This document shows, piece after piece, positions 15,640 to 57,554 of a DNA stretch of 64,000 nt. Position 1 is the first letter of the stretch; each line of letters opens with the position of its first letter. The stretch covers positions 372,001 to 436,000 of the forward strand of contig JAHEWK010000027.1 in the NCBI GenBank assembly GCA_020740775.1, read 5' to 3'. The position numbers and the translations under genes were made by a program. This DNA is from Ilyonectria destructans. Taxonomy: Eukaryota > Ascomycota > Sordariomycetes > Hypocreales > Nectriaceae. The notes under the pieces were generated by a model. That model was not told the origin of the DNA. It saw only the letters and a program-made list of their open reading frames with translations, and searched no databases.

Positions 15640-16247
15640 TTGAGGGTTGGATGGATTTTATTTCGCCCGGGGGGACACACCCCAGAGGGCCTTTGCGCTA
15701 AGCTATTTTCGTTTCGTACGGTTCTTCCATAATCACCCGAAGCCCCACAATTTCACTTTACTGACTGTTCCAATCTGATGTATATGCAGTGACAGGCCTG
15801 CTTGAAGGCCAATTTCTCCAAGTGTTCAGCATCCTATCCTCAGCAGCTGAAGCACGGTCTGCCAAAATGAGACTGTATGATGTTAGTAGGATTCAATCTG
15901 AATAGTTAGTGTGCCTGAGGCTTCTGGTCCATGTCAAGCCTCCCCGTTGCAATGGCAAATTTGATCGTCGCCCGTACTGCCCGCATGTCTGGCGCCCATT
16001 TGTCACCGTCAGACGCCGCCTTTCCTCCCAGGAAGTATGATAGGTTTCCCATCTTTGTCTGTGAGCATCGCAGCATGCCTTCTCGTTGCGCGGTCCATTT
16101 TGTGCAGCGGAATAGGAAGTGTTCCACTGTCTCTGATGCTTGCCCGCATTCGCAAGTGTCCGATTCCATTGCTCCTATCTTGCACAGAAAGCTGTTAAGT
16201 CTCGCCATTCCGGTGCGGAGCTGCGACGCCACTTGAGGGAATGAGCA
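15640..16247 (-). mobile_element. Tad1-like LINE, 3' end only
   Basis: The minus strand encodes the C-terminal tail of a non-LTR retrotransposon ORF2 between about 16247 and 15906: QLRTGMARLNSFLCKIGAME, then the Cys/His motif CECG...ETVEHFLFRCTKW, and ATIKFAIATGRLD. The reading frame is open to its stop. About 260 bp of 3' UTR-like sequence follow (to about 15640). Everything upstream (endonuclease, reverse transcriptase, RNase H) is missing, the classic result of 5' truncation during target-primed reverse transcription. It sits between copies C and D of the dispersed element. Confidence 0.82.
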
Positions 16248-16424
16248 TGCTCAGGGCCGCAATAAGCCTTCGCCGCGTTCCCAGCAGTCCTCGCGGGAAG
16301 CCAGTCAGCCATCTGGACCGATCCAGACCGATCTACCAGCCTCTGCTCGCTGGCCGCCTACGCAGCATAACAACCAGGAAAGCGGCGACTCGGGCCGCGA
16401 AAACGAGCGCGAGCCTAGAATAGA

Positions 16425-16750
16425 TTGGCCCTCGCCCTCTACGGATCCCCGAGTCGCTTGTCAAGTGTAGGCAGGAAGACCCCGTCGCTGTCTTCGACAC
16501 CGGGAGTGCAGTGGAGACTGATACTAGATGGGTGGATGGATGAACCCTCAAGATCGATCCGTTCGGACGGCCCGTAAGACGATGCGCGCATTGCACTCGA
16601 CTTGTCCCACTGATGATCCACTACAATGCGATCAAGTGTAGCTTGGAGAGCCTGAAAAAGGTCATCTACTTGTGTGGTGCGGGGTCTAGGGGTGCATGTG
16701 AATCAAGGGTCCGACTTAGACTTTTGGATATGTCTTGAGAGTTTAGTCAT
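16425..16750 (+). repeat. Dispersed element, copy D
   Basis: Begins ctacggatccccgagtcgct, then gtaggcaggaagaccccgtc, gggagtgcagtggagactga, a cgacttgtcccactgatgat block and ctacttgtgtggtgcggggt. Lacks the 5' third found in copies C and E. Confidence 0.72.
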
Positions 16751-17439
16751 GTGTTTCGTCTCCAGCCTTGTCGTAGTTGCTCGGTCCATGAAAGGGACTT
16801 GTCGCGAGGGCGAACAGTGTTCTACGCTGCGCAGACAGAAAGATCGACAGACTAGCTTGAGCTAAGACGGCGAAAGCTTGATAACACCAAACATTGTGGA
16901 GGAGGTGGACTGGGACACTGAGGGGCAGGTCGTAGCGACGAGTGCGCATGGGAACGAAAGAACAGAACGAGAGACCGAAAGGAAGAGAAGTGGGGGGTAG
17001 GGGGTAGGGGTTAAGGGGGTAGGCGAAGCTTGAGCAAAAAAAGCCCAGTGATGTCCTGAGGAGTGATGTCCTAAGGAGAGCAGTGACACTCTTGCCAGAA
17101 GCTCGACGAGACGGAGATGGCAGAGAGGGTTGATAAATAAACGCGGAGGTCATTTACCAAGTTTGAAGCGGATGTGGGCAGACAAGGTGGGTAATGGCAC
17201 CCAGTTCATACACACACCGCGAGGAAGGTGTAGGGCATTGCGGGACCCTACATGACGAGACAAAACCTTTCAGACATTCGAAGACATTCGAGGACACTAC
17301 AGGACACTACAAGACCGTCCTGTGAGTGTTGACTTAATAAAAATGGATATTGCATTGGGTCAAACGGGCGAAACCACAAGGGGGAGAGCGTAAGGTGTGC
17401 CCTTCTTCTTCGGACCGGGCCCGGCCCATCATTCGGCTC

Positions 17440-18110
17440 GTTGCTCTAAACTTGGGTCGTGGCAGCTGGGTTGGGATTGGTCGACAGATCCGATAGATCT
17501 GCGAGATCTGCTTCGTGGTCTCTGCAAGCTCGGCGTTGTCGTTTCCGATCATGCATGCGACCTTGATCGTCGCTCAGGGCAGGGGCGTGGTGAGTGAGCA
17601 ATCGTCGCACATGCATCTTGAATGAACGTCTTGCCGTAGTGTCTGCCGGCTTCGATGCTTTGTGACATGCGTGCACTTGGGGGGGGTTTCATTTGCTGCG
17701 GACGGAAACCGAATGAGGGATGGCACCTTACTGTTTCCAACAAGAAAAGTCTCCTTGTCGGGTCCGTGACGGTGTTTGATTGTGAGTCACAAAGAACTGC
17801 CCCGTAAGCGGATCAAATGTCCGGAGTGAGTAATGTCTCCTGCTTGAGAACTCAAGTTTGACTGGATGACGTATGTACTTTGACACGTGTATGCCATAGT
17901 ATGCACGTCAACCACGGACAGGAAGAGCCACCGTCTTCGACACCAGGGGTGCGGCTGGCGTCTGTGTCCAGGCCTCGCGAAAAGCTTGTGACCAACGACT
18001 TGCCCAACGTTGATCCACTAAAAAGTGCGACAAAATGAAGCTTTGGGGTGTGTGGTTTCGGATGTGTGGTTTCGGGTGTGTGGCATGACGTGTCAACGTG
18101 TGTTCGTCGT
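17440..18110 (+). repeat. Dispersed element, copy E
   Basis: Begins ttgctctaaacttgggtcgt and continues with gatcatgcatgcgaccttga, gtctgccggcttcgatgctt, tttgctgcggacgg, aagtctccttgtcgggtccg, aactgccccgtaagcggatc, gtaatgtctcctgcttgaga, the gaagagccaccgtcttcgac block and the aaaagcttgtgaccaacgac block. Its first half is duplicated again at 63540-63712. Confidence 0.75.
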
Positions 18111-18235
18111 CGGTCGTAACTCGGAGACACACGGAGACACACAGAAACACGGAGACACGGAGACACGACAAGACACACGGAGACATACAAGACAACACAA
18201 GACGCTACAAGGTAAGCCAGACACCGACACTGAAC

Positions 18236-18300
18236 TCGCGTACGTGTGCGTCATTGTACACCACGGTACTGCAAAGTATCAGACGTCGCCCGGATCCGTC
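18236..18300 (+). repeat. Second repeat family, partial direct copy
   Basis: gtacaccacggtactgcaaa followed by gtatcagacgtcgcc, nearly identical to about 19018-19060. It leads directly into the CA-rich tract. Confidence 0.75.
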
Positions 18301-18500
18301 TCACATACACATACACATACACATACGCATACACACATACACACATACACACATTACACACACACACATTACACACACACACATTACACACACACACATT
18401 ACACACACACACATACACGTACACATACACATACACAAACACATACACAATTACACATACACATACACACATTACACACACATACACATACCATACACAT
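18298..18500. repeat. (CA)n-type microsatellite tract
   Basis: About 200 bp of cacata / cacacatta words. The long Thr/His-rich open frames across it in several frames are artefacts of the repeat. Confidence 0.93.
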
Positions 18501-18961
18501 TTCAACAGCGGCAGACATTGTGGAGGAGGCAAATTAGGACATTGAGGAGCATTTCGCAGCATGACCGGTCCGGATTGTTGAGAGCAGGCTCTCCTGCCGG
18601 AAGGCTGACTGGATGAAACAGAGGATCGACAAACAAACGCGTGGGCAAGGAGCCAAAATGACGGCTGAGAGTTTAGAGCAAATGATGGCGGGCAGACGAT
18701 AACGGTGGGATGGCGAGGGTCGACCGGCGAGGGTCGGGAGAGACTGGCGGAGCATGGAGCAACGTGCCAACGCTGAGGAATGGCGTTTGCTCGTACACGC
18801 CAACGACGAAGAAGGTGGGCATTGCGGGGCCCTGCAAGACATGATGAGACGTGGCAAGTCCTTTTACAGACATTCGAAGACACTCAGAGACACTCGAAAC
18901 ACACGGAGACGCGACAAGACACGACAAGACGCTAAATTCATAGTGGTCGAAATCAACTCAC

Positions 18962-19128
18962 AAAAAGAGACTGGAGGCAGCCAGACACCGACACTGAACT
19001 CACATATGTGTGCGTCGTTGTACACCACGGTACTGCAAAGTATCCGACGTCGCCTGGATCCGAACTTCATCTATCTCGTCTCATGTGAGAATCAAGGAAG
19101 TTTTAGCAAGGTAGCTCAACCGTCGCCC
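18962..19128 (+). repeat. Second repeat family, longest direct copy
   Basis: Shares gccagacaccgacactgaac and gtacaccacggtactgcaaa with the copy near 18210-18300, and in inverted orientation matches 14448-14590 to its far end (gttttagcaaggtagctcaa). Non-coding. Confidence 0.72.
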
Positions 19129-19319
19129 AGCAAGGGTTACGCAAACGCGAACAGAGTTCAAACGGGCGACATCAGCGAGGAACGAGAGGTCGACTCTGGT
19201 GTTTGAGCTTGCGACAAGTGTCTCCACCGCACTTTGCAGCGTTGAACTCTTACGACATTTTGACTTTGTAGTGTTCGTCTCTGCGACCGCAATCTTGGAG
19301 TCAAAGTGATTGTATTGTG

Positions 19320-19395
19320 TAGCACGGCCCGCCGTCTTACCGGGTATAAAGAGCGAAGAACCTCGCCTCTTTCAGCCGTAATCAGTTCTGACACA
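19320..19395 (+). repeat. Diverged duplicate of 20375-20450
   Basis: ataaagagcgaagaacctcg followed by cctctttcagccg aligns with atcaagagcaaagaagctcg and cctcgttgagccg at about 20396-20432. It looks like an old local duplication or another small repeat family. Confidence 0.55.
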
Positions 19396-19975
19396 CGCAT
19401 ACACATCACCATGCTCAGATTGATGTCGCGGCTGGGTTTTGGACCGAACAACGATTGATTTGGTATCAAGCTATCTTACTGTTATAGTACCGGTAGTTTT
19501 CTTTTTCTTTTTTTCTTTTGAGTTCGGAGACGTTCACTTTTCCTCTCCCTCCTCTCCCTCCCTTTTTCTCTTGATCCCACACCCACTCTCACTGTCCTTC
19601 TTCACTCCACAGACGCCTCCTAGTATCCATGCTCGAAAACCTTGTTCTTTTTCTCCGGGACACTTCTCTACTTGTGTGGTCACGACGAGACATCTATTCA
19701 CACATAAGCAAGGTATGAAGGCACCCCTGTGAGCTTCAGTATACTGACATAGAGGCGTGAGAAGCCACCTTTTGCACAGAACAGAAAGACGGGCGGCAAT
19801 CATGGATATAGTGACAGGAGCTCTACTTTTTCTATTCAAGAGGTTGTCGCTGGTGGCTCGGCTCCTCACCCCCCTCATCCCCCATTTCCTGCTACTGACA
19901 TTTTCTGACATTTTCTGGCATTTTCTGGCATTTTCTGGCGTTCTCGGCGTTCTCGGCGTTTGCTACTTTTTTATT

Positions 19976-20103
19976 TTTGGCGTTTTGGCGTTTTGGCGTT
20001 TTGGAGTTTTGGCGTTTTGGAGTTTTGGCGTTTTGGAGTTTTGGCGTTTTGGAGTTTTGGCGTTTTGGAGTTTTGGTGTTTTGGTGTTTGGCCCCCCCCC
20101 CCC
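19976..20103. repeat. gttttggcgttttggag minisatellite with poly-C end
   Basis: Tandem 8- and 16-bp units of ttttggcg/ttttggag, ending in about 13 consecutive C at 20091-20103. It is preceded by short tttctggca and gttctcggc repeats from about 19898. Strongly G+T biased on one strand. Confidence 0.92.
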
Positions 20104-22764: not shown

Positions 22765-23525
22765 TCAGCCGGTAGGCTCGCATGCAAGCGTGTGGAGGAG
22801 CACACTGCCAAGTTGAAGGTGTACCAGGTCTTCTGTGCTCAATTCGGGGAGGCGGCGGAACAATCCACAACGGGACTCGAATGAGAATTCGCTCGAGTTT
22901 GCCAATAGGTTCCTGGATTCATGGAACCAGGCACTCACTGACGCCAAATATGGTCCCGTGCCTACCTACAGCAGCGTCGCGGCCTCGCCTCCGGCTGCAA
23001 ACAGTTCTCTTACCCACCAACATCAACATCATCAACATCATCAACATCATCAACATCATCAACATCATCAACATCATCAACATCATCAACATCATCAACA
23101 TCATCAACATCAACAACATCAACAACAAAACCCCCCTCATCGCCAGGGGTAGCTGACTGCTGTTCTCCCTCCCCGCGAGAGAACCTCCGTGTCTTCACCC
23201 AGTTAGACGCCGGAGCTCCGGCTAGAGCTCACAAGGACTTTGTAACCCGGGCCCATATGTCCGGGAAACTTGGAGAGGGCTCACGCAAAATCCTGCGAGT
23301 TTTCCCAAGTCAGGTCCGGATGGGTCGTCCTCGCCACCGACATAATCACCCACGATCTCCTCGTACAGAGATAAACGGAATGGGCAGCCGATCTAGGGGC
23401 TGCTGCCATAGAGACTAACAAGGAGTGGTTTATATTTACCTATGTAGTCCCAGACTGGGCTGAAGCCTGTCGACATACGCCCCTTACGGCACCAGTCCGA
23501 CAACCCTCTAACAAAACTTGACTTA
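22765..23525 (+). pseudogene. LINE ORF1 (gag-like), decayed
   Basis: The reading switches frame and contains stops, but ORF1-like pieces are visible: KRVEEHTAKLKVYQVFCAQF, EFANRFLDSWNQALTDAKYG, TYSSVAASPPAA, then RENLRVFTQLDAGAPARAHK and, in another frame, TEWAADLGAAAIETNKEWFI. The order matches the gag-like ORF1 of Tad1-clade LINEs. A trinucleotide-like expansion (23022-23120) interrupts it. No intact product is expected. Confidence 0.65.
23022..23120. repeat. (atcatcaac)n microsatellite inside LINE ORF1
   Basis: About ten copies of a 9-bp unit (aacatcatc and its permutations), giving poly-His/Gln, Asn/Ile or Ser/Thr strings depending on frame. Confidence 0.95.
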
Positions 23526-29052: not shown

Positions 29053-30418
29053 AGAAGGACTCTGACTGTTCAAAGCGAGTGGTGTCTCCAAACTTGATCA
29101 GGTGTCACATGGGATAATACCGTCGTTGACGGTCGTCCTGTGCCAGTTGTTTGCGTTTGTTCGGTGAAAAGTCAAGACCAAGACACATTCTTTGAATAGA
29201 TCGCGGCCTTCCTATGATCTTTCCATAACCGTCGAGTGCCTAGTCTTGCTCAAGCGCGTTGGTTCGCGCGCGCAGTACCGTATCCCCTCTCGCCGCTTGT
29301 CCACATGTAGGTATTGCAATTGAGCTTGAGTGAGCATCTGACCAAAGCCACCTCGGTTACCAACTGGCAAGTGAGAGGGAACGATAACACGTATGCATGA
29401 CGGACAAAAAACTCAGGCCACTTGGCGAGATTCTCCTAGGTTTGTTCACTTCATTTACGACGAAGGAACTCGCCGATCATACGTGTGTTTCAAAAAGCCC
29501 CATCTATGATTCGGTCTGTACTGGCAACCGCTATCCCCCGGCAAGCGCCGGTTCACGCTTGGCGAGCGATGTTTTAAAGAGCGCAAGCATCATCGAGAGA
29601 ATAGAGTGCAGACGTGTAGGAGACCACAGTGCATGCAATTCCAAGCACGCGCACTTTTTTCTTTTCCTTCCACTTGCACCCTCTCTGATCAAATCTGGTG
29701 CGAAGTCTCTGAGATGCATGAGCCCACTACGTCAGATCCTTGAGGTAGCAAATACACTACAAACGACGGCAGCAAACGCGTGGCTTGATCCTTACAGACT
29801 ATCCGAAACTCTTCCTCCAGTTAGAAATGATTTCGTAACAGAAAAGGGTACTCATCAACTAAATTCACAAAACAGACCCAGTACGGAAATCACAGACCAT
29901 ACCACCAAAAAATAAAACAAAAAAAAAAGGTAAAGAAAAAAAATTCCGATACCACTTAACACGGCCAGCCCAAGTCGACGCGTTGACCAGAAGATGTTGT
30001 CTCAGATGGGCAGACCCCAGCTTTATGTCAGCCGCTGCGGCTAAGTTAGGATACGGCAATCTGCGAGACATTCTTTTACAGAGGTGGCTGTGCGAGAGCA
30101 TGGCCGTGCGAAGTTGCGCTCGCCGGGTGCATGACGAACCATCCGCGGCAGAGGCCGAGAGGAACCCATCTAGACCATTTGTGACATGCCGACGAAACCA
30201 GTCCAGAGAAATCGGTTGGGAGGAAATCTCTATCTAGCATCTCATTTCCCTGCCTGCTGATACGTAGTGTGAACAGCCATAGCACTCTCTGTTGGCTCTG
30301 GTGTTTTCTCCTCGTCGCGGTCGCAGTAGAGGGCTAGCCCCGGCGCTGATCCGTAGAAGTGTCTACCATGACTGAATGAGTGGTTGTCACAGCACCACAA
30401 TGGACTTTCCGCGAACGC
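29053..30418. other. Intergenic, no supported gene
   Basis: A 172-codon plus-strand frame starting with ATG at 29397 has no recognised domain, low-complexity ends and no splice evidence; it is not called. An A-rich tract is at about 29900-29945. Confidence 0.45.
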
Positions 30419-30794
30419 CTAGGTCGATCGAACGTATGAGCTGTCCTTCGAGTCGCCAGTTGACACATTCGGCAAAGCCCCATCTTCAGACACGATAATG
30501 CTGACGGATCTCTCAAGGTCATCGTTAGGCTCCAAAGAACTGTCTGACATGTTCTCTCGGTCTCTTAGCCCGGGATCAAACAGACACCAGTTATGAATTG
30601 GCCGACCCTCGCAATCAGTCATGGTGCATTGATTGCACCGTATATGCGGACATCTTGCATTTCTACAGAGGCATGTAGTTACTTCCCACGATGTCCAACA
30701 CTACCTCATCGTTAACACCTTGACGCATATTCACTAATCGAACGGGCATGCTTACATCGCAGCAAACCCAATGGGTGGAGTTTGAGTCAGGCAT
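30419..30794 (-). CDS. Possible small Cys-rich (zinc-type) protein, unresolved
   Basis: Two minus-strand pieces look related. The upstream piece reads MPDSNSTHWVCCDVSMPVR; the downstream piece reads CRNARCPHIRCNQC followed by an acidic Ser-rich tail. W-x-CC followed by a CxxxxC/CxxC pair resembles small zinc-binding modules found in fungal hypothetical proteins. The two pieces are in different frames, and I could not find a GT-AG intron that joins them properly, so this may be a frameshifted remnant. Confidence 0.25.
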
Positions 30795-31738
30795 GATCTG
30801 ATTGCGGCGCGGTGCGAGTTTAACGGGGTCGTTTTGGGGTGTACCCAATACAATATCAACAGAGGACTCGCTGATGGCTAAAAGGTATTTGTGCTGTGGC
30901 ACTGTATAGGGAAGAGCACGCTCGCGGCCGATAGTCAATCTGTTTTCTTGTTCGTTCTTTGGGCCTTCCTACTTTCCATTCTTTCTTTCCCATCTTATGT
31001 TCCTGAAGGAATGGGTGCAAGAGACGAATCAATCCTCATGATCATTTGCAATGGATACACCCTGAACTCTACGAGCATGGCGTGCAACGTATATGCGAAC
31101 ATTCGTCATGTTGTTGTAACGCGTCAACTACTGAATTGGGCAGAACATACGTTCAAAATTCCACAGTCACTAGACTATTTGTTTCTGGTTTGGGAGGCCC
31201 CATGGCGGCTCGAAAAGGTGTCCGTCTCAGACACGTAGCAGACTGCATCGGTCAGTCACCACAACGATGAAACTTGTTGTGTGGCAGGTTGTCCTGAGTC
31301 ATCCACCCCACAGGCTTGTAACATGATCAAACAGTTCGTGACGAATGTGCTATGACTACCCAGAGTTCGAGAGGTCAGGCTGTTGCTGGCTGGACTTCTG
31401 CTTCCTTGTATGTGCTGCTTGTGGGACCGAACAACAGGTGGCCTGTGCAGGGAATCAAGTTCAACATTTAACTGACGGACACTCTTAGGGGCTACAAGGT
31501 TTGTCCAGTTTGCGTTGCCTACTTCTGAGTAGATTGAACAGCCGGAATCAGTTTGGGCGCGTCTCGCGAGCGTAATAAACCACGGAAATGAATCAAGGGC
31601 GGATGAACACTCCATGGTATTGTCACATGGGATTTTGTGAAATGAAAGTCGCGGCAGCGGAAATTAGGTCTACCTAGCGGGATTCTCTACACTGTTAAAA
31701 AAGAAAGAAAGAAAGAAAGAATGGTGGGAGAATAAACG
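30795..31738. other. Intergenic
   Basis: No convincing gene. 31238-31310 resembles 5761-5836 (see findings). A 119-codon minus-strand frame at 31256-31615 has a real ATG but no recognisable domain. Confidence 0.45.
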
Positions 31739-32354
31739 CTACGTGTCCATAAGGATTGGGTCTCGAAAAGTGTCCGCCCACGTCGAGTACCGCAAACAAT
31801 CGAAATCGGCATAGCCTCCAGATCTGCCTGCGTTTCAGATAGTCAGTTAAGAAGATGAGCAGATGTGCGATCAGCTTACAATTTCCGAGTGTTCGCAAGA
31901 TATCACTGCAAGCTCCATCTCCGTTGATGCTCATGTTGGCCGCCTTGCATTTCGGCACCCAGGTGACTTGGAACATCTGAACAAGCCAAGTCGTATTGAG
32001 ATGATAGGTTCTAGATATACCGGGGAAGTCTTGAGCCAAGGTGGCGTCTCGTTGAGATTCGCAAAAACGGATTGCGTTATCGTCCCTTGTGGGTTTGGAC
32101 AGAACGAGATTATCGCCACCAGCAAAACAACGAATAACCGGGTCAACGATCGCGGAAGTGTGTGAAGTGAGTGCGGTGGAACTGATTTTCGTACCATCAG
32201 CTTCCCCCGTGGTTGTTGCGGCCAGTGTACTCCACAATCCACCGATGCCAGTAAGAATGTGCGTCGAGAAGCTAGGATGGGCGCTCTCGCTCTCCGCGTT
32301 TACTAATGTAAAAGTGGCAAGGAAGACATGCACAAAGAAGATGGTGAGGTTCAT
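31739..32354 (-). CDS. Small secreted Cys protein (GGYADFDCLRY type)
   Basis: Exons 32354-31880 and 31827-31739 (a 52-bp intron with GTAAGC donor) encode 187 residues. MNLTIFFVHVFLATFTLVNA is a clear signal peptide. The mature part has six Cys (RCFAG, RFCES, PKCKA, ACSDI, GNCRS, DCLRY). The C-terminal block, with W in TWVPKC, then CSDILRTLGNC and GGYADFDCLRY, fits a common family of uncharacterised fungal secreted proteins that end in a GG-Y-...-C-x-R/K-Y motif. No catalytic residues are recognised. It is a candidate effector only in the loose sense of small, secreted and Cys-containing. Removing the intron is what restores the conserved C-terminus, which supports the splice. Confidence 0.75.
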
Positions 32355-32979
32355 GATTCAGGATAGCCTTGTTTCTGCCGAAAGGAGTCTTGCCACTGAA
32401 ATATATAGTAAGTCGGCCTCGTGAGTTGATACGGTCAGAACTCAGAAGAGCAGCAGTGATGGGACAAGACGGCAGATCGGTGGATGGTTGTTTGGTACAG
32501 TCAGGGATGAGTCTATGGTGTGTCAGACTTCAGCTACCAGTTTTACGACAGGCGCAGCATGCACACCTCGTTAAAGCGGGTGTACCAGATTTCTATAATG
32601 TGACTGGCCTCTTATGTAACAACGCATAGTACGAACAGTACGTGAGGGGTGTTTACCAAGGCAAAAGAAGGCGTTCACGAACAGATTCGACCCATCCCAA
32701 CGTACAGTTGCCTTTTATGGATGGTAAACTTGCGTTGGCGTGCGTTGGCGACGTATCGAAACACGTTCAAGCGATGTCAGTTCCGTTTCAGAGCCCGAGG
32801 TTTCCTAGTGGACGGATATAATGACGCAAACTGTTATCGAAGGAGACCACCAGACCCAGGCGAACCGGACGGGGTTCTCTTCGCACCTTGCCATACGGAT
32901 GGGCAAACGTAACGTCAAACAAGTCATGGTGCCCGTGATGATTCGTTGGTGGTGGACGAGACAGGAAACATGACAATCC

Positions 32980-33618
32980 ATGTCCCCAAGCTACGATGGT
33001 CATGCCGGGTTTGGTTCTGGATCGAGAAATGACAAATCTCTACTAGCTTCGACCATCCAAATCAGCCGCAAATCCAGGACAGTTTCGTCAACATCCCTCC
33101 TTTACTCGTCAACAAACTGTGGCACCCGTTCAATGGCTGCGTCAATCATGGCTTCATTGGCTGCACTAGAGCAGCGCATGACTACGGAGTACACGGTTCT
33201 GCGAAGTCGAACGTCAGCTGTCGCTACTGTACGAAGCACTGCTATTGATAAATTGTGCGCAGTTACCTTGTACTATACAAATCCAATGGACAGGAGAAGA
33301 ATTGACAAGAGAATTCATGTATTCCTCCAAAGCGAAACCCCAGAGGCAGAGGATGCTTTTTTCTTTGTTCCCGAGTGGGAAGCTCACGAGCCTCAGGACT
33401 CCCCGTCCAAGCAGGCCCAGCCATCACTTCACCCGCTGAGGCCGGATCGAGAATCAACTGCCATGAACTCGCAGGAATCACAAGCTAGTAGCGGAGCTGA
33501 CGCGACAACCGAGCGAAACATTCTGTTTAGTCCGACAAACGGGCTGCCCGCGATGTATCGCGATATTTTCGAGGTACTAGACTCCGTTGTACCAGCGCGC
33601 AGCTCCTCAAGTGGGTAG
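32980..33618 (+). CDS. Hypothetical protein, doubtful
   Basis: A 212-codon plus-strand frame with ATG, convergent with the Hsp70/Ulp1 gene and ending 137 bp before its stop. The middle has helical character (ASLAALEQRMTTEYTVLRS), followed by a polar Ser/Gln/Pro-rich half. No domain recognised. It could be a 3' exon of something larger or fortuitous. Confidence 0.3.
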   Translation: MSPSYDGHAGFGSGSRNDKSLLASTIQISRKSRTVSSTSLLYSSTNCGTRSMAASIMASLAALEQRMTTEYTVLRSRTSAVATVRSTAIDKLCAVTLYYTNPMDRRRIDKRIHVFLQSETPEAEDAFFFVPEWEAHEPQDSPSKQAQPSLHPLRPDRESTAMNSQESQASSGADATTERNILFSPTNGLPAMYRDIFEVLDSVVPARSSSSG

Positions 33619-33755
33619 CAATAAACTGGAGTGAGTTTAAGATATTAAGAGGCAATTTTATAAAAAAGAAATTCAATACTTAAATGTTAGGTACATAAGC
33701 ATTTAGACAAGATCCATAAAGCAAATAAACAGGGCCCTCTCATTCAGTTTATAGA

Positions 33756-36700
33756 CTATAATAATAGCCTGTCATCTATGGCACTTCGAATAGCTAACCG
33801 CACCTCGGTCGTGTCAAGTTCCCAGCCCAATTCTTTATAAGCTGCTATCCTGGCAATAGCTACATCCGGGTCCTGGAAGAACAACCTCATATAGCCAAGG
33901 ATATAAACGCCACAGTCAACCGCGTTATTTTGCTTCGGGAGGTGCAGAGCTCTCACCTCACGCAAATCGTTATCCGCTTTGATGGACCTCGATTCTGCCG
34001 TAGCTGCCTGTACAAGAAACCCATGAAGCGGTTGTTCCACTCCTACTTCTTCATCGAAAAGCGAGTCCATGGTGATCACGATTGGCCGTTGGGAGGTATT
34101 GGCGTTTATGAGTGGCAACGCTGGGTCTGTTCCTCCAGAGACAGCGTTCGCAATGTCACACATAACGGCTATGCGCCAGTGCTCCAGACTCTTGTCGAAA
34201 ATGGGGATGACAACGAAGCGATATTCCTTAGAAAACAACTCCAATTTCCGGATCTCTTGATCGCTGATACTTTTTTTCTTCTCGCAAAGGCGTTTAAAAA
34301 AAAAGGAGTTGAGAAACAAAGTATCCTTTCGCTCTTTGAGTATGTATTTGAGGTAAAAGTTGACAACCTCATCGCTCAAGCGTCCACCCTTATCAAGGCA
34401 CGCCCTCAAAGACCGCAAGTTTGCCTGTTCTTCTGACTGAGTTCCCGGTGTACTAGAGTCCGAGGATACTGATACGACTTCGTTATCCTGTAACTGGTCA
34501 AATACTGGATAAAAAGGCTGACACGTATCTAAAACCTACATCATCCTTCGTAAGAGCTTCTTCGAAAAAAGAAACCCAACGCGAAGATTCTGCATCCCAC
34601 AATGCAGTGCAATTGGGTGTCAGAGGCACAATTAGGTCCCCGGAACCCCAAGATCCTTCAGACGGAACGTATGCCTTACCAGGCGTTTCTTCGCCGTTCA
34701 AGCGTAGTATACCGGGGCACTTTGGTTCCGCATCACATTCTTTCTCCGACGAGCACGGCGAAGGTGATTTCTCTAGACCAGAGTTGTGATAGTTAAACCT
34801 AGAAGTATCCGGTGGGTCGTTTCTCGTAGCATCGCTCTCCTCGTCGTCGCCATCCTTGAGCGACGTCGAATACCCGTTTTTTAATACAGCTTGGGCACTG
34901 TCCCTTTGAAGAGGTAAGCGGGGGATGTCACAAACTTGAATCCAGCCAAACCTTTTGTCGTTTCTCACATCAGCTTGATGACGGACACGCTGCTCGGAGA
35001 AGGTGTCCTTCAGGTCTTGCGAGCGATCTGGAGGCAACGGCGCGGCCTCTTCCCAGTTGACGTTCGTTTCGAGGATCTTGAGTGGTTCGTCGCTGCAAAC
35101 ATTCATATTCAACTGCAGTGCTGTGCTGCTTCCTTCGATTGGAAGCATTACAAACACGCGCCGACCCTTTCGCGAGAGCTCCGGTGCTTTAAAGTTGATC
35201 ATCGGGCAAAATCCAGCACTCGCCCAACTTGCCCCCCCGCGACCGATTCGATGTCCCTTTGGAAGTACGGGTCGGCGGTATAGCGCCCATGTTTTCCACT
35301 TATCATTGTGCCAACAGGCTTGTGATTCTTGCGGAGCACCCTATGCTGAGTCACTTCCTGCTCCGACCAAAGGCTTGTGCATACTCACCTGGTCCCACAC
35401 CACCTTGAATGCTCTACTGTTACCGAACCCTATCGCAAAAATGCTATTCCGAAGGTCGTATCTCAAAGGACTGTCGTCCTTGCACAGCTCGAGAACAATT
35501 CTCCATCGCTCTCGTGAAACCACAAACTCTAGTCTTCTGTAGCCAAAAGGGTGGATCACTTCGAGAATGATGCGTTCAGCTTTTGATCCTGAGCAAAACC
35601 GGTAGGTTATGAATCCTTCAGAACGTGCGCTGAAGTCGATTTTAATCGGATCCATATACGTTGCGCCCGCAGTTGACCGGGCTTCTCGAAGGGTGTCCTT
35701 CGATCGCTTGGGGAGCACTGCAGATTCCTCTTTGAGACTTACGTATACTGGGAAAAGAGTGACTGATTTAGCTTCTGGGGCTATTTGGATCGCCTCGAAC
35801 TTGTTTTCGAAAAGATCAAACGGTTCTCCCTGTAGGTGTTAAAATTAGGATGGACTTGTGCAAAGTAGAAAGCGGGAACCTACCCACAGCTTGGATGGCA
35901 GAACAATGTCCTGGATGTGACCGTCGGTGCCCTTATTGTCGCTTTCGGCGCTGTTCCCCGAATCCTGGACAGCGAGACCGAAACAGGCCTCTTGGAGTTC
36001 ATCGGTAGCTGTCCATTTCGGCCAGGGTATGACTGCGCCTTTGCAGGCATCAATGCTGTTATCAGTTCGCAGGCTGTTAGTGTGAGATCTGTCGTCGCCG
36101 TTGACCGCTCGCCTTGATTCTTCGCCGTGCGCAAAGCACACTTGGGGGTTGTATTTGCTAGCGATTTCTGTAATCATTGACTGGACCTTGTCGTTAGAAG
36201 CCGGTGCAGCTCCCATGACAACCAGGTATTGTAAATCCCTAACTTTGCCCAGTTCCGAATCGAGTTTGTCCAGAGCATCACCGAAGGCGCCCCGGAACAT
36301 GGCATCGACTTTTTCCTTAGAAAATACTTTGCCGCTCGGCAGATCAACCTCGTCAATGTCGGGCGACATCTTGCAGAACGCGTTTCGAGCGGTTAAAAAC
36401 TCGGACGCATCGACATACGGGCGTAAGTTCCTCCAAAGTCTTCCAACGCCGCCGCAACCCCCATATGGCCGAGAAATCGGAAAGACCTTCAGGGCGCTCT
36501 CAGGGCGGATCTCGAAAGCGGCAAAGGCCTGCTGCAAGATAAGTACATTATCGGAAGTCGGCCTCGGCGGGCACTCACATGGCACTGTTCGCCGAAGTCG
36601 GCTATCATGACCTAATGCTCGACCGGTTTGTTAGCGGCTCCTCCGTGTAGTATGTAGACTCAGGTCCTACTCGAGATTTGTGCTTCAGCTTAGGAAACAG

Positions 36701-37381
36701 GTTCAAGCGGTTCTGCAGTATCACAGCCAGGACAGCCTCCACATCCGATTCAAACTCGATCGACTCGCTAGGTATTCCGGCTACCTGAGCCTCCCCCTCC
36801 AAGAGCTTCTGAATAACCGCGGACTGCTCGTCTGCCTGGGTCCATAGGACTGGCACTACAAGGACAGTTTTACTCCAGGTCCACCTATCACCGATTTCCG
36901 AACTCAGGCAACTATCCACAGTTGCTTTCGCTATCTCATAGATTCGCCGAACAACGGTGCGAACGCCCACTTCAGTGTAACCGAGAGCTTCAGACAGCCG
37001 CTGCACATCTTTGTCTTCCAGCAACCGCGGATCCAAGGCTTGCTTGATTCCAGCTATGGGATCTTCTCTTCCGGAGTAGCAAGCCCTGATCTCGTTCTCG
37101 CAAAGCGCTTGCAAAGGTACTAGCGTGGTTCTCTGGAGGCCATTCCCTTCGGTGCCTCCCTGTATTGTTCTCGAGGCCTTGTCGTTGTCGTCGATCCAAT
37201 ACGCGGCTTGGATCTTGGAAGACCCAATCTCGATACTCACTGTGACATTGTATTTTCTGTTTTCGGATGCCATTTCAGATGCGTTGCCTAAACAGTGAAC
37301 CATTTGGATTCCAATCGCTTGCGCGACGCTGTCGTCCTTAAAACTTATTTGCGACTCGGCCAGCAATTTTGCAGTAGTCAT
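33756..37381 (-). CDS. Hsp70-like ATPase fused to Ulp1-type (C48) protease
   Basis: Exons 37381-36671, 36611-36579, 36531-35884, 35829-35389, 35340-34540 and 34487-33756 total 1122 codons; all five introns (47-59 bp) are phase 0 with GT-AG ends. Residues ~45-400 fit the Hsp70/HSPA12 actin fold: VTVSIEIGSSKIQAAYW (phosphate-1), TVLVVPVLWTQADE, ESDVEAVLAV, VMIADFGEQ (phosphate-2 position, rebuilt by two introns) and YLVVMGAAPASN (adenosine motif). Residues ~465-880 are unrecognised, with a beta-rich part (ITYRFCSGSKAERIILEVI) and a Ser/Glu-rich linker. Residues ~900-1121 are a C48 cysteine protease: YRFVVIPIF, EH981W, MD1019SL, Q1064 and DC1070G. Inferred role: ATP-dependent recognition coupled to removal of SUMO or a similar modifier. 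Substrate unknown. If introns 4 or 5 were false, it would split into separate proteins. Confidence 0.8.
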
Positions 37382-37959
37382 GCTTCTTCACATGGTCAAT
37401 CTTACCAGGAGGACCGCGTGCCGGGTCAGATTTCCGCCTTCTCGTCACCCAGCGACGAGGACTCAAACACATGAACGATTACAATCTAGATATGGCTTCG
37501 GTACCTACATGCAAACGTAAACAGCTTGAGCCACTATTTTCTTCGCAAATCGAACTCACTGTGAAATGACACACGCACTGTACGGCTACATACAGCCAAT
37601 GAGGTCAAGGGTGGGCCGGAACGGGCGAAGGTAGCTGACGACCTACTGCCTCAAATAGCCATGCATGAATGGCTGGAGACTGAGTCACATAGACCAGGGA
37701 GGTACACGGACGCTTGGTACTAAAACCTAGTGTACATTTAAAGATCGTACGTGCTTAGCCACAGTATCTGCGTCCTTGTGCCTGCCGGTTGAGTCATCTT
37801 GCTAGCATATAGACCCGAATCTAGTGTAGCGCCCTTGCAACGTTTATGTTGTGTTGTTCTCGATGGTTATGTGATATGACCACAATGGCGCTTCGACTTA
37901 GAAAGAGAGCATTGCCATACGTGATGCAGCATACCGCCCTGCAGCCCTATATTGTAAGG

Positions 37960-37968
37960 TATATAAAA
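37960..37968 (+). promoter_or_regulatory. TATA box of the 38085 gene
   Basis: tatataaaa lies 117 bp before the ATG of the plus-strand gene, inside the 703-bp divergent promoter region shared with the Hsp70/Ulp1 gene. Confidence 0.5.
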
Positions 37969-38084
37969 TGCGTATGGTCTCTGAAATCTTGACCCGGAAT
38001 GGCAACCAGAGCGGAACCTCCCCTTGAGGATAAGGATGGCCTCGTGCCTTCGTCTGGTCTCCCCGTTCTCGTCAAGCATGCAAT

Positions 38085-39027
38085 ATGCCTCATACTCTCC
38101 AGTTTCGAGCCTGCCTTACCATTCGGCCCCGAGATGAGCTAGATAAAGTCTATGAGAAAATTATTCGGCGCCCCCATGTTTGTGGAAGCGTTCTTCGAAA
38201 CAGAAGAAATAAGGAGCTGGTCATGGCCCACTTGATCTGGAAAGTGGACACCAGATCAATTTCAAACATCGAGCACCGAAACGTCGCAACTGTTGCTGGC
38301 ATTTTTTACGGGTGTCACAATGGACTGTTTGAAGTCATTCTCCTTCAACAGTATGCAGAACTGACTCTCGACGAACTACCCCAGCTAAACGAGGTGGAGC
38401 TTTCCAGTTCTTGCGAGCAGGTAACCCCCCGCAGTCCTCGATCTCGTCGGGAACATCGCTCATCGCAAATGCAGCTCGTCGATGGCTTTCGATACTTGGC
38501 GTCCACCAGCCCCCCCTTCTTCGTGGAAGACGTCCGCGTGAATCTGTCTGGAACTTTGAAGATAGGTAAGTGGAGGGAACTGCCCGACGTTGCGGTCTTG
38601 ACGCGTTGACTCGGACTCGAACGCTGACAACACCTCCTTAGTATTAGATTTTGGGCACAAGTGCGACTACATCAGCTCCACGGCAGGGGACTACTGGCAC
38701 ACACAGTACACTGGCCGTGCTGAGCGGTTGTTTTCGCTCCAGACCAACGGGAACCTGTCGAGTCTGGGAGTCCAGTTCCACCGGGTTATTTGGGAACAAG
38801 GCATGCCCTTTGTAGAAGTAAGAGACCAACGCCAAGCCATGCAATCTACTTATATAAGCACAGCACGAGTTTCTCATGCAATCTCGAGGGCCAAAGGGAC
38901 TGCAAAGCGCAGTGGCACGAGCGGCCACTCTGCTCCTTCACAGACGGCAGCTAATCCCTCCTACAATCTGAATCAGCATGGGAAAACACGATCCCTTCTT
39001 GGTAAAAGCGCGGGGCGGCGAAGTTAG
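38085..39027 (+). CDS. Unrecognised protein divergent to Hsp70/Ulp1 gene
   Basis: Exons 38085-38565 and 38642-39027 (76-bp intron, GTAAGT donor, CTGAC branch) give 288 residues. Protein-like stretches: LTIRPRDELDKVYEKIIRRP, VATVAGIFYGCHNGLFEVIL, the spliced VRVNLSGTLKIGVLDFGHK, and VQFHRVIWEQGMPFVEVRD. The C-terminal ~60 residues are basic, Ser/Thr-rich and probably disordered. The alternation of beta-like segments with a central Ser/Arg linker suggests two small domains. I recognise no family. Divergent arrangement with the ATPase/protease gene and a shared promoter region suggest co-regulation or a functional partner, but this is inference only. Confidence 0.6.
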
Positions 39028-39320
39028 GGACGTCGGGTCGATCCATCACTTTGTTGACAACTCACTGTTTGATCAGGGGCCTGATTAGGCACTGTTTATA
39101 TATTAGTAGTAAAGTTAGATAGTTATATTAAAACTAGAAGAGGTGCTGCAGCTGCATCAAGTTTTTGATATAGTCACATCGAGTAGGGGCAGACTTTTAG
39201 CATATAACTATAATCTAATCCGGGCATATAGTCCTCCAAGTCGCTACAAATCCTATGTTCCCGTAGGATCAATACAATCCAATAATTCTACATCGCAGTC
39301 AACTGAGCTCCTCCAGATAC

Positions 39321-39900
39321 TCAATTAACACAATGCAATACAGCATCATCATTCATTATCCTGTCGCCTAAGAGACGAGTAAAGCCCGGATCAGAATCGA
39401 GTCCGAACCGATCGCAGAAACCGCTCAAGACGAGAATTGACCAGGGCATCAGTTACGTACCTAAGGTTAGCTGTGTCTCTTGATGCTTGTCGTTCATTCC
39501 TTCACAGCTCGCTCGTAATCGAACAAATGTAGGGCCCGCAGCTTCAAACTGCAGGTCATCACATGATTGAGCGAAGTTTCTGCGAGCAGTATGTGAGCTA
39601 GAAACCCTTGGGCAAGAGTCCCAGGTCCGGTACTTACTCCCCGCCCCAACACAAGTAGCCATTGCAGTTTCCAACGCAGCTGCTGAGATCGATGGTAGAA
39701 TAAGTCATTGATGCGTTCTTCGCCCGACATTCACACGCCATGAGGGCATCGTCTACAATATAACAACTCTCGCAGGTCTCATCAAGAAACGTGATTTCTC
39801 TGACCGATGACCTTGGATGCAGGGTAGGCGTGTCTTGGGTAGCACCGGCTGCTAAGACGACGAGGATACCCACTAAAGGAAGGGAGTTAAGGCGGGTCAT
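39321..39900 (-). CDS. Secreted cyanovirin-N (CVNH) lectin
   Basis: Exons 39900-39638, 39579-39461 and 39367-39321 give 142 residues. MTRLNSLPLVGILVVLAAGA is a signal peptide. A Cys-rich stretch follows (TCESC, ACEC), then the CVNH fold: DLSSCVGNCNGYLCWGGENF, SCDDLQFEAAGPTFVRLRAS, and the last short exon completes the domain with GDRIMNDDAVLHC, equivalent to the usual final DGxxNxDGxLxC strand. CVNH proteins bind mannose-type glycans; in fungi they occur in the cell wall or are secreted. The two extra Cys pairs before the domain are unusual for a single-domain CVNH protein. Splicing is supported because both introns restore motif continuity. Confidence 0.8.
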
Positions 39901-40680
39901 ATTCACAAAGAGACAAAGGGTGGATCAGAGGTCCTGGTAATTGGAAAACTATGGCATTACCACCTAGTTAATAACGCTGAGGACCTGGCGCAGTCGCTCC
40001 GGAGAAGAAGCTAGTGAATGATTGAAGCAAACGACGCACACACCGACCTCATAGTCTATGTCTCTATCTTGCGTCACTTCATCCAGCAGACCCAGATCTT
40101 CATTGGGCCAAGAGCGTGTAAGGGGACAGCGTGGTAGATTACTTGCACCGTACTCTAATAAGATCATGTGTGACTCCCTTCTTCTTTGATCGATGCCCAC
40201 TTCCCAGGCGAATAGATGCATTGTACGTAAATAGTATGCCACAGCGCAGTATGCACTTACGCCACACGTGAACCCAGGACTCAACCTCGACGCGCTTATG
40301 TCATGGCAAGATCAGTCAAGTTTAGGCTTTAGATACGCTTATGCTAGGGTGCCGACACTTTACTTCAATGAAAGACAGTGGATCATATACTGTATTACTG
40401 TAACTAGGACGCACGATTCATCTCGCGTCCCAGGTTCGTTCTCCAACCTCGTGTACGGCTTGTTATAAGTCTAGTAAAGTATGTGACTATTGGTGCTTCT
40501 GCGCTTCCCCGGCTCCAGTAGGAACGGGCTCGGCGCGAGCGCTGTCGAACTGCGAAACATTGTGAGGGAGTTACATGCGACACAGCTTGGGATACCGCGA
40601 GCATCAAGATTCTCCAATCATCAAGTAAATCCCTCTCAGCATTTAAACATGCCCAGTGTCCAAAGCTTGCGCTCCCACCT
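39901..40680. other. Intergenic between CVNH and F-box genes
   Basis: Divergent promoter region of about 780 bp. Short open frames on the minus strand lack an ATG start and recognisable domains. Confidence 0.5.
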
Positions 40681-41997
40681 ATGCAGTCTCTTCCTTTAGA
40701 GCTACAGCACCTTATCTGTGAAAAGCTCTCCTTAGGTGACCTGAACAGTGTTTCCCAGTGTAGCCGATACTGCCATTCTCTCGTCACGCCACTGCTCTAC
40801 AAGAAACTCACCCTTCATTTTCGCGCCGGGGTTCCTGAAAGAGGAACTGAGTCTGCGTTGAGGGTTCTAAGCCATCGTCCTTGTTTCCACGCCCTCATCC
40901 GCCACATCAGGGTGACCAGCGATGGTACCCGCTCCTGGTCGGGCGGCCACTCGGCTTTGCTCAGCATCGTGCTGTCTCCGATCCTCGCCCAAACAACCAA
41001 TATCACGGCTTTCTCTACGTCCGTCAGCTGGCAGTATACGGACCACTGCTTTCAGGATCTCAAAGAGCTGGAAAGCCTACGCGTCCAGAGCAGCATCGAG
41101 TTCAGCTGGGTCGCTTGGCACCTTTCCAACTGCAAATCGTTGCAGAGGTTGCGCCTTGGAGTTTCTCCTTATCTGCCCATGATTACTTCGCACAGTATTT
41201 TGCCTCGCCTGAATTTGGCCAGAGTCAAAGACCTTTCTCTGCAATGCGTTGATCTGAGGATGGTCAAATCATCACTTGGGACTTTCCGCAACCTCGAGCT
41301 CAACCTTTGCCCGGGTACAGAGCGATTCCTTGAGCAACTCAAGGGACATAACGAGCTGAAGTCATTTCGGTTGGCCGGCCACGTCTCCGACAGTACTTTG
41401 TCCACATTTCTAGGGAAGCTAGGCAGGAGCTGCCAGCTGGAAGAACTTGCTCTGAGAATCGGTAACTGCTCCAACAACGTCAACATTGCGCTGATCCGAC
41501 CTCATTTCCAAAGTCTCAAGCTTCTAGTGCTGGACTACAGGCGTGAGATCACGGATTCCCGCTCCTCTAAGAAGTTCCACTTCCACCAGGTGCAGGCCCT
41601 TCTCCACATGTGTCCGCATCTCGAGTTTCTTGGTCTTCCGGTGGAGTTCCGAGACGCCCAGGGAAGAAGGGGCCGAAGGAAGGATATTATGGTACGTTGT
41701 GTCCCTTCACGCATTAGCATAGCATCACATCACTGACATACACGAAAGCGTCTATCCCAAGTCCCTCTCCCCCTCAGATACCTTCACCTCCGCGGTCATT
41801 GCGTGCCGATGGATCGTACACTAAAGGACGCAAAGTACCACCTGAAATGTCTCCGACTCGATGAAACTTTGACGTTATTTGTAGACCACGGGAGCAGGAC
41901 GCGGAAACATGCCTTTGGCGGTGACCGGTTTGCGGGTCGTTTGGAAGTCACACAACAGGAAAAAAATCGGTTCTGCTTAGATTTGTACATGTTATGA
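40681..41997 (+). CDS. F-box/LRR-type protein
   Basis: Exons 40681-41691 and 41749-41997 (57-bp intron, GTACGT donor, CTGAC branch) encode 419 residues. Residues 4-45 form an F-box (LPLELQHLICEKLSLGDLNS, then CSRYCHSLVTPLLYKKL), which binds Skp1 in SCF ubiquitin ligases. The rest is a leucine-rich repeat-like solenoid: LKELESLRVQSS, CKSLQRLRLGVS, ARVKDLSLQCVDLR, LEELALRIGN, FQSLKLLVLDYR, CPHLEFLGLPV. The chosen acceptor at 41748 gives RLSQVPLPLRYLHLRGHC, which continues the pattern; an alternative acceptor at 41776 would give a shorter, unconserved tail. Substrate unknown. Confidence 0.82.
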
Positions 41998-53160: not shown

Positions 53161-55424
53161 ATGAAAGCTCTGCTTGCGATACTGGTGATGATCGCCGGCT
53201 TTGGTGATGTCAACGCTCAGGTACGTTCCTGCCTAGGTGCAAGCTGCTATCGACCTCAAACTGACTATCGACCACTCTATAGTGGGGAAGAAATGCTAAA
53301 AAGTATATCATACCTAGCAATTCTATTAACTCCTGCGATGCCGAGATGAAGAAAAGTTGGACTTGGGAAAGTCTCAGTCCCGGCAGCTTTGATACCTGGA
53401 ATGGCTGGAACTTTGCTGGTAGCTGGTCGTGTCAGTCATCCTCTAAGCTTGGTCTTGATGGCCGCACATTTAGGAAAGCTATTTCTAGCTATTGTGGCCA
53501 TGATCTCTCCTCCGCTCCTTCGTTTGACTGCGGTTCCAAGTCTAGTGTCTCCAGCTTCTCCATCTCTACTTTTTACGTCAGTGTCGAATTTGACTCTCGT
53601 TTAGAGCTTTACTACGAGATGCAGGATGGGTCGCTGTGCCGTCAGTCCCACCAGTGTTCTAGCGGCAGCTATAACGAAATCACCAACACTCAATGCGGTG
53701 GAGCCATGAGGGTTTCATTCGTCTACCCCAAGCAGGGCAACAGCAAGGATAGATGCAAGATTGAGATCCCCTCTGTTGGCTTCCACTGCGAGACCTCGGC
53801 CACGCTCACCACTGCCCTCGTCACTACCAGCATGGGAAGCGTCCGCTCCGGCGGAACTACTACTGGTGACAGGTGCACTAAGCCTGACTGCAAGGGCTAT
53901 CAAACCGACGTCAGTGTGTCCACCGCCTCTACTAGGTCTACTGCTACTCGATCTACCGCTATCACTTCCGCAAGCACCCGCGGTTACTCTTGTATCGCCC
54001 CCAGTTGCAAGAGCTACATCCAGACTACCTCCACTGGTAGCTTTATCACCAGCACCCTTCCTACAAACAGCCACAAGTGCAGCACCCACAGCTGCGGAGG
54101 CCACAAAACCACCACTTCCGACTCTGGGAATCACACCCAGCCCAGCAGCCGTACAGCCGAAGAATCAACAACCACGAACCAGCAGTCAACTATCGCGCAT
54201 AGCAGCAGCCATGCCAGATTCACCACCAAGAGCACCCAGACTATTTCCTCGAGTAAGCCACTGGCCACCATCAACGAAAGCGTCGGTAAGGAGACCAACG
54301 GCTGCTCCACCCCGCACGTTGTCAATGATAACAGCACTTCCACTGCCAATACCCTCGTCACACACACAGCCACAAAATACGGGACCGGCATCTTGAACCG
54401 CACTACGGAATCACATCTCATCGACACCGTGACATATGCAGGCGCCGGCGAGACGTCGCTAACTAGGCTTCGATCCAACACAGAGACCTATATCGAAACC
54501 AAAGCCACCATTAGCGCCAGCTTTAGTAGCACGTCTACTATCTACGCCACCAGCCTCAGAACCATCACCTCTTGCAATTCCGAGGTTACTAGCTGCTCTA
54601 TCACCTCAGGACCTCCGGTTGTCATCACCGAGACTATCGCCGTCAGGACTACCATCGTCTCCACGGCCGAGACTCGCGTCGACAAGTCTGCCAGCACCTC
54701 GTCTCCCACTCATCTTAACGTCAACATCGCTTCCTCCTCCCAAATGACCGACGAGGATCGCCCTGCTACCCCTACCTCCAGCTACGACATCCCCGACGTC
54801 CTTCCCAGTTGCATCAACACCTTCCTCGGTTTCGCCGAGGACTGTACGGACAATACGGATGCTGCCTGCTATTGCCCGGACCAGACCTTCGTCAACAACG
54901 TCTTCCAGTGTTTGTATGCTCACGGCGAATCCGACGACGTTATCGCCAAGGCCATATCATTCTTCCAAGGTATCTGTGTAGGCTACGTCTCCGAAAACCC
55001 CGCTGTGTACACCGGGGCCGAAAGTGTTACCAGCATCATCACCGTCACCGGCACCATGGTTATTGCATTGGCTCCATACACCACGGTGACGGTCTATACC
55101 ACCATCACCCAGTCCTTCATCGCTACCGACGGCTCCGCCATCGCAAGGAATGGCACCGCTGTGGCTATCTCCACCGAATATGCTGTTCCGGAGATCGGCT
55201 TCACCACCGGCCCCTCTGGCAGTGTCAATGCCGTTCCTCCGGCTACTACCGAACCTGCCGTCCCCAAAGCTCTCTACCCCACTATCACTTCCGTCCCTAC
55301 TAGTACTGACAATTACGCTGTTCCGACCTCCACCTCCCCTGGTGAGGTTCTCGTCACTGGCGGCGCCGCACAAGCCATTGCAAGCTACGCAGCTGTTATC
55401 TTTGCTGCGGCTCTCGTGCTGTGA
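53161..55424 (+). CDS. CFEM-domain GPI-anchored mucin-like surface protein
   Basis: Exons 53161-53220 and 53346-55424 encode 712 residues. The first exon is almost exactly the signal peptide (MKALLAILVMIAGFGDVNAQ). Residues ~21-150 form a Cys-containing N-terminal domain (SFDTWNGWNFAGSWSC to VGFHC). Residues ~150-500 are Ser/Thr-rich, with three short C-x4-C-x2-Y/H repeats (RCTKPDCKGY, SCIAPSCKSY, KCSTHSCGGH). A CFEM domain follows at ~504-570 (PSCINTF, EDCTDNTDAACYC, FQCLYAHGE, GICVGYV), with six of the usual eight Cys. The end (AIASYAAVIFAAALVL after a Gly/Ala site) is a GPI-anchor signal. Inferred location: plasma membrane or cell wall. CFEM proteins include heme-binding and adhesion/virulence factors. 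Confidence 0.85.
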
Positions 55425-57117: not shown

Positions 57118-57554
57118 TCGTGTATGGTACAGTATTGTGCACTCAACATTGGACTAAGCAAACGCGGCCATCGGGCTCACAAGGACAAGAAACTTACCAT
57201 TAGTTGGGAACACTAACACAGCTGCACAAACTTACACCTGTACGAGGGTGATGACGATGTCATCGCATAGCTTGGCCAAACGCTCCGGATGCGGTACCGT
57301 GTCTGAAGCACCTTGGTTGCATCAAAGACAGAACGCAGGGACGTTGACCTCTAGTCTAGCAACCAGTGTCGGGACCCACAAAGGACCGGGTTCAGCCTTC
57401 CGCTCGCAGCATCAAGTTCTCGAATCTGAGTAGACTGTAGAATGTATTGTAGCAGGAGCAGAGGTAAGTACATACTTGCCTTTTTCCATGATGCTCGACT
57501 GTGCAGTTGCCTTAGAGTCGGCCACCGAGAGTCTGTTCTAGGTACCGGTACTGT

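Follow-up and report, generated by a model that had tools for sequence, protein, structure and literature searches.

Does the minus-strand gene that spans positions 33756-37381 of a 64,000-nucleotide stretch of DNA (the window, C20:372001-436000) from Ilyonectria destructans, a soil and root fungus of the Nectriaceae, really join an Hsp70-like protein to a SUMO protease, and what might such a join be for? A preliminary description of the locus had proposed an Hsp70-like ATPase fused in frame to a Ulp1 (SUMO) protease. Comparing the predicted protein with the 71.67 Mb assembly (74 contigs) and with protein databases, we find a real, single gene of conserved architecture, with an intact protease catalytic set, nearest kinship to Ulp2 and a degraded ATP site. 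The union of HSPA12-like and Ulp-family parts in one gene is thus upheld, whereas a working ATPase is not, since the ATP-site residues are altered. We give close to an even chance, if slightly less, to the reading that the gene is a chimera in which a piece of a cellular Ulp2 was joined to a divergent HSPA12-like gene, its product being a targeted deSUMOylase with a pseudo-ATPase adaptor.

The six exons, spliced in silico, yield one frame of 1121 amino acids and a stop. Introns 1 to 5 measure 59, 47, 54, 48 and 52 bp, all GT-AG and all phase 0, in agreement with the first account of the exon structure (six exons, introns of 47-59 bp). Intron 2 has two candidate AG acceptors three bases apart, giving 47 or 50 bp; the extra residue of this tandem acceptor is not present in either of the Dactylonectria macrodidyma proteins described next. 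A whole-protein search of a set of 5.8 billion proteins (E <= 0.001, 7999 candidates scored) returned three matches: P0001 (D. macrodidyma, 1075 amino acids, 69% identity over 100% of the query), P0002 (D. macrodidyma, 1066 amino acids, 68% over 100%) and P0003 (Ilyonectria robusta, 675 amino acids and partial, 78% over 35%). A search with the C48 part only (1096 candidates scored) added a 1396-amino-acid C48 protein at 25%, P0004, to the same three, and P0005 was the sole match to the HSPA12-like part (7999 candidates scored). These searches depend on shared five-letter words and limited candidates, so that distant relatives may escape them.

The preliminary description had put weight on whether homologues always keep the two parts in separate genes; P0001 and P0002 each carry both, and P0003 holds part of the first half together with the protease. 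Recurrence of the whole architecture in a second genus at 68-69% identity is, at the level of sequence, beyond chance. The exon 5/6 junction is read through in P0003 over 41 ungapped columns, where the window protein runs from EEALTKDD into DNEVVSVSSDSSTPGT and P0003 from KETLSKDD into ENEVVSVSSDSGTPGT. We checked this junction by pairwise alignment because the multiple alignment misplaces the P0003 linker; in the multiple alignment the stretch directly past the junction is not present in P0001 and P0002. It is very improbable that two adjacent genes were wrongly merged by our splice model, which does rest on exon-level evidence, given that both parts occur in two D. macrodidyma gene models and in one from I. 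robusta, the last across the same junction, and that all five introns are GT-AG and phase 0. Between the window protein and P0001, identity is 76% in the HSPA12-like region, 76% in the middle, 62% in the linker and 72% in the C48 domain, the two halves being about equally conserved.

The C-terminal part matches the Pfam C48 model with an E-value of 5.6e-11 (whole-protein score 43.1 bits vs a curated cut-off of 20.7), and the H-D-Q-C set recognised earlier corresponds to H981, D1019, Q1064 and C1070, invariant in all four aligned fusion proteins. In the PDB the best relatives of the protease are SENP7, first, and Ulp2, second. A C48 search of the genome lists eight places: a Ulp2-like gene (C73:985906-986700), a Ulp1-like gene (C6), a Nep-like gene (C23), the window gene, its duplicate on C15 and three stop-interrupted copies, where the labels Ulp1, Ulp2 and Nep for the fungus's own genes are our reading of their sequences. 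With the window C48 domain as query, phmmer gave E-values of 3.7e-28 for the fungus's own Ulp2, 7.8e-17 for P0004, 1.5e-6 for Ulp1, 6.8e-4 for the Nep-like protein and 0.04-0.05 for the probable repeat-borne copies (those on C9 and C24 compared). Consistent with this, the four fusions form one clade (support 100/100) in an unrooted tree of ten C48 sequences, with Ulp2 next to them at a moderate 87.3/81. By sequence, then, the nearest kin of the fusion protease is the fungus's own Ulp2, ahead of Ulp1, Nep/Den1 and repeat-borne C48, and the Ulp1 label first attached to the protease holds for the family and not for the closest relationship.

Kinship to Ulp2 extends beyond the domain itself. Exon 6 opens with DNEVVSV, which aligns to ENDVVSV of the fungus's own Ulp2. 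This likeness was spotted first and the shuffle test run afterwards: out of 2000 shuffles of Ulp2, 3 matched as well as the real sequence with a 27-residue query, 17 with a longer query and 22 with the corresponding stretch from I. robusta. From the phmmer and tree kinship together with this likeness, exon 6 looks like a Ulp2 piece over most of its length. The fusion shares with the Ulp2/SENP6-SENP7 branch (its own Ulp2, SENP7 3eay and Ulp2 5lnb) the H-D-Q-C set and the closest sequence, an insertion between His and Asp (short in the fusion), an upstream SUMO-interacting motif (SIM)-like sequence in Ilyonectria and, with Ulp2, a similar GW...R stretch behind the C48 domain. It differs from Ulp2 in that an HSPA12-like N-terminus replaces Ulp2's own extensions and in lacking the long C-terminal tail of the fungus's own Ulp2. 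A short targeting motif and a SIM guide yeast Ulp2 to its targets, as stated in PMC6892545, and parts of PMC12687455 describe SENP6 and SENP7 as specialised in SUMO chains and SENP6/7 and Ulp2 as carrying SIMs.

Capture of the C48 domain from a mobile element, raised in the preliminary description as an alternative origin, is not supported because the protease is closest to cellular Ulp2; the repeat copies are far more distant by E-value and Pfam detects no transposase domain in the gene. Three closely alike C48-like frames with stops (L006, L007 and L008, on C9, C24 and C26) are probably repeat-borne. They resemble the fusion in their C48 core, differ from it in being stop-interrupted and are not a likely source.

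The N-terminal half carries the phosphate-1, phosphate-2 and adenosine-type motifs (SIEIGSS, ADFGEQCH and VVMGAAPAS) in the expected order and position, as first noted; all three are degenerate rather than intact Hsp70/HSPA12 motifs, and Pfam gives no Hsp70 match for the fusion. The Hsp70/HSPA12-like assignment is made because a protease-free paralogue, encoded from C20:85566 onward, links the fusion to an HSPA12-like profile. This paralogue matches P0005 (EDB80DRAFT_899611) at 98% over 84% and can be aligned with most of the first ~740 residues of the fusion, at 25% identity over 610 columns (BLASTP 1e-39, phmmer 5.5e-38). Three of the five fusion introns fall in the same alignment columns as the paralogue's (260, 271 and 494), including both edges of a 33-bp exon, which in the paralogue reads IFFVDIGEGTW and lies at the same place as mini-exon 2. 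Against a profile of five HSPA12-like genes from the same genome, the paralogue scored 95% (E 3.5e-8) in hhalign. A few hhalign shuffles (1 of 10 targets in one run and 2 of 60 for each of three queries in another) scored ~134-139 over 6-51 aligned columns, above real scores, and were taken for a numerical artefact; HMMER, used for this reason as a further check, gave weaker support than hhalign, with the paralogue at 13.5 bits and in first place among 2008 sequences (real, reversed and shuffled). NCBIfam gave weak matches of the paralogue to HscA (0.035) and DnaK (0.66) at roughly the expected position. A low-confidence model of P0005 yielded 404 Foldseek matches at E <= 10, none of them at E <= 0.001, and the top four, each with a root-mean-square deviation above 10, are actin-fold enzymes; 18 of the 50 best rows listed are actin-fold proteins, and no Hsp70 chain is among those 50. 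Overall these results suggest that the N-terminal half is probably an HSPA12-derived actin fold, recognisable by way of the paralogue.

Like the fungus's own HSPA12-like proteins (L048-L052), the fusion keeps the motif order phosphate-1, VP..W, S-E/D-.-E, phosphate-2 D.G, adenosine strand LVV.G,.GAV. Unlike them, it has most ATP-site residues altered, is short where subdomain IIB would fall and has a different C-terminal half with a C48 domain added. In Hsp72, D10, E175, D199, T204 and D206 are ATP-site residues with a catalytic role, according to a section of PMC9438496. In an alignment of one Hsp70, three own-genome HSPA12-like proteins, the paralogue and three fusions, the fusions covering the region show changes of D10 to Glu, E175 to Asp, G203 to Gln, T204 to Cys or Tyr and D206 to Ala; of the five Hsp72 residues they retain D199 only. 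The paralogue, which lacks a C48 domain, retains all five, and G203 as well. D199 and G201 are retained in every aligned row, and G202 and G339 are altered in paralogue and fusions alike. For D10 the column was fixed by means of an HSPA12-like protein, because the Hsp70 frame used lacks the N-terminal exon; among the HSPA12-like rows, one (L050) has S at D206, probably from rough exon joining, and two are incomplete N-terminally. The N-terminal half is probably not a working ATPase, and ATP-driven client binding is less likely than a passive adaptor role because the ATP-site residues are altered.

Taken as a chimera, the gene would have arisen when a piece of a cellular Ulp2 gene was copied and, by way of a phase-0 intron, became attached to a divergent HSPA12-like gene. 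The pseudo-ATPase module and its companion region may bind a partner or client and so act as a passive scaffold. SUMO may be engaged by the flexible linker, which in Ilyonectria has a SIM-like motif, and the Ulp2-type C48 domain would strip SUMO or trim SUMO chains from the bound protein. By analogy with yeast Ulp2 and SENP6/SENP7 we infer a division of labour in which the HSPA12-like part and its companion region would target, the SIM-like motif hold SUMO and the C48 domain cut. A bolder form, a new class of SUMO protease with a dead Hsp70-type fold as adaptor, by which misfolded or marked proteins lose their SUMO chains to the attached Ulp2 domain, strikes us as rather unlikely.

Several observations weigh against this account, beginning with the protease. 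The SIM-like VVSVSSDSS, a short motif found in the window protein and P0003, has no counterpart at that place in P0001 and P0002, two of the four fusions. All four have Arg before L-[NS]-D, where the fungus's own Ulp2 and P0004 have Phe and Ulp1 has Trp; in known structures this position touches the SUMO tail. The substitution lowers the claim for a SUMO substrate and leaves the C48 assignment unaffected. Together with the longer stem branch of the fusion clade (0.98 vs 0.50 substitutions per site for the fungus's own Ulp2), it fits a protease whose target, to which the fusion would direct it, is a different ubiquitin-like tag or some other protein. We regard such a non-SUMO target as distinctly unlikely, as the nearest relatives are Ulp2 and SENP7 and the SIM-like motif is retained in Ilyonectria.

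The HSPA12-like part is likewise open to objection. When the fusions alone were scored against the HSPA12-like profile in HMMER, they reached 3.7 bits (window), 1.0 (P0001) and 7.9 (P0002), vs 3.7, 2.4 and 4.4 bits for the respective best shuffles, that is, at or near noise, and the fusion alone reaches 23% in hhalign. The 29-39 bits that fusions score once the paralogue is in the profile come from their similarity to the paralogue, against which alone they score 107-128 bits, and the paralogue's own HMMER E-value against the HSPA12-like profile is a modest 0.0028. A PDB search with the profile gave no match. AlphaFold2 models built from four-sequence alignments had a mean predicted local distance difference test score (pLDDT) of 30.3 for P0001 and 35.6 for P0005, and even the C48 domain was below 50.

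A near-identical copy in the same genome bears on whether the first half matters at all. Window positions 30001-40000 are duplicated at C15:764290-775601 with 97-99% identity. The copy of the fusion gene is 98.6% identical and retains every exon and splice site; its codon 744, which falls between the halves, is an in-frame stop, and the gene may on that account be dispensable. The two copies differ by 20 silent and 18 replacement changes (dN 0.007, dS 0.026, dN/dS ~0.27, binomial p 8.7e-5), of which residues 741-905 in the linker hold 10 silent and 6 replacement changes, leaving 10 silent and 12 replacement changes elsewhere. The stop, the lost ATP-site residues, the duplicated and repeat-bearing contigs and the finding of only three fusion proteins in the database search would all suit an N-terminal part that is a remnant without a targeting job, in a fast-decaying accessory duplicate where only the protease or nothing matters. 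We judge this unlikely: the N-terminal and middle regions are conserved between the genera like the protease, dN/dS is low between the copies, and at four of the five altered ATP-site places both genera show the same new letter.

Repeat-induced point mutation as the source of the copy differences is not supported (82 transitions vs 45 transversions over 9.1 kb, no clear CpA bias), and a diploid assembly is not favoured as the cause of the two copies because the fungus's own Ulp1-, Ulp2- and Nep-like genes are each found once. We make no claim of a mini-chromosome, as none of the places listed in a telomere search lies on C15 or C20. Further matches between these contigs join window 10001-13647 and 16228-19826 to C15:740162-751335, and window 57293-60000 to C15:860637-865258, inverted. 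A young repeat of ~585 bp at window 15642-16227 is present in at least 32 almost complete copies at 99-100% in the rows listed, and short tandem arrays lie at window 253-442, 13000-13164, 19975-20089 and 23021-23127.

The relationships among the copies raise one further reading. P0001 and P0002 are identical at 194 of 194 C48 columns; their HSPA12-like parts differ by 8% and their linkers by 24%, a pattern as expected after gene conversion of the protease half. The C48 domains of the window protein and P0003 are 72% alike and each is 72-73% alike to those of Dactylonectria; this lack of excess likeness inside Ilyonectria is unexpected for one simple orthologous gene. Both patterns, as well as the duplicate in I. 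destructans and the pair of proteins listed for D. macrodidyma, would be in keeping with a locus of genetic conflict or self/non-self recognition, belonging to a patchy family that diverges rapidly and occurs in several copies on accessory-like contigs. We consider this quite improbable, since Pfam finds no known incompatibility domain in the gene and no clear conflict system in 20 neighbouring frames (of 34 of at least 190 amino acids, some being the gene's own exons). Parts of the gene and neighbouring features are listed in Table 1.

Table 1. Parts of the fusion gene and domain matches of neighbouring frames, in window positions.
Feature	Position	Strand	Basis
Whole gene, six exons, five phase-0 introns, 1121 aa	33756..37381	-	Splice model and full-length D. 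macrodidyma homologues
Exon 1, residues 1-237: N-terminal extension (1-43), then first half of HSPA12-like region	36671..37381	-	Splice model
Mini-exon 2, 33 bp, VMIADFGEQCH, degenerate phosphate-2 motif	36579..36611	-	Splice model, paralogue comparison
Exon 3, residues 249-464: second half of HSPA12-like region, degenerate adenosine motif VVMGAAPAS, CKGAV	35884..36531	-	Splice model
Exon 4, residues 465-611: conserved region common to fusion and protease-free paralogue, unnamed domain	35389..35829	-	Splice model, paralogue match
Exon 5, residues 612-878: last part of paralogue-shared region, then polar Ser/Asp/Glu-rich linker	34540..35340	-	Splice model
Exon 6, residues 879-1121 and stop: Ulp2-like unit (SIM-like motif, C48 domain, Ulp2-like stretch behind)	33756..34487	-	Pfam, Ulp2 comparison
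SIM-like motif VVSVSSDSS, residues 882-890	34452..34478	-	Resembles ENDVVSV of own Ulp2
Peptidase_C48 domain, residues 915-1086	33864..34379	-	Pfam PF02902, E 5.6e-11
Catalytic His H981	34179..34181	-	Invariant in 4/4 fusions; aligned with HW of Ulp2 and Ulp1
Catalytic Asp D1019	34065..34067	-	Invariant in 4/4 fusions
Catalytic-site Gln Q1064	33930..33932	-	Invariant in 4/4 fusions
Catalytic Cys C1070	33912..33914	-	Invariant in 4/4 fusions
Patatin-like match just below cut-off	2199-3302	-	Pfam on neighbouring frame
F-box	40522-41733	+	Pfam on neighbouring frame
CFEM domain	53283-55421	+	Pfam on neighbouring frame
Forkhead match just below cut-off	60283-61062	+	Pfam on neighbouring frame

The preliminary description knew of no named family with this order of parts, and in our library scans of the fusion no Pfam or NCBIfam model was seen spanning both. 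Among the papers listed by our searches of the open-access literature, none reports an HSPA12-like/C48 fusion; HSPA12-like and Ulp2-type pieces are known, and it looks as if their joining is little known. The kinship of the protease points to a cellular, rather than mobile-element, route for C48 domains into new proteins. With a Ulp2-type protease carried on an Hsp70-type fold, nature would in effect have tried out the retargeting of deSUMOylation, and the genome itself offers two comparisons: a paralogue that has no protease and retains the ATP-site residues, and a near-identical duplicate that stops short of the protease. If the bolder form of the reading, with a dead Hsp70-type fold as client adaptor, is true, the gene would provide a direct physical link between a chaperone fold and the control of SUMO chains.

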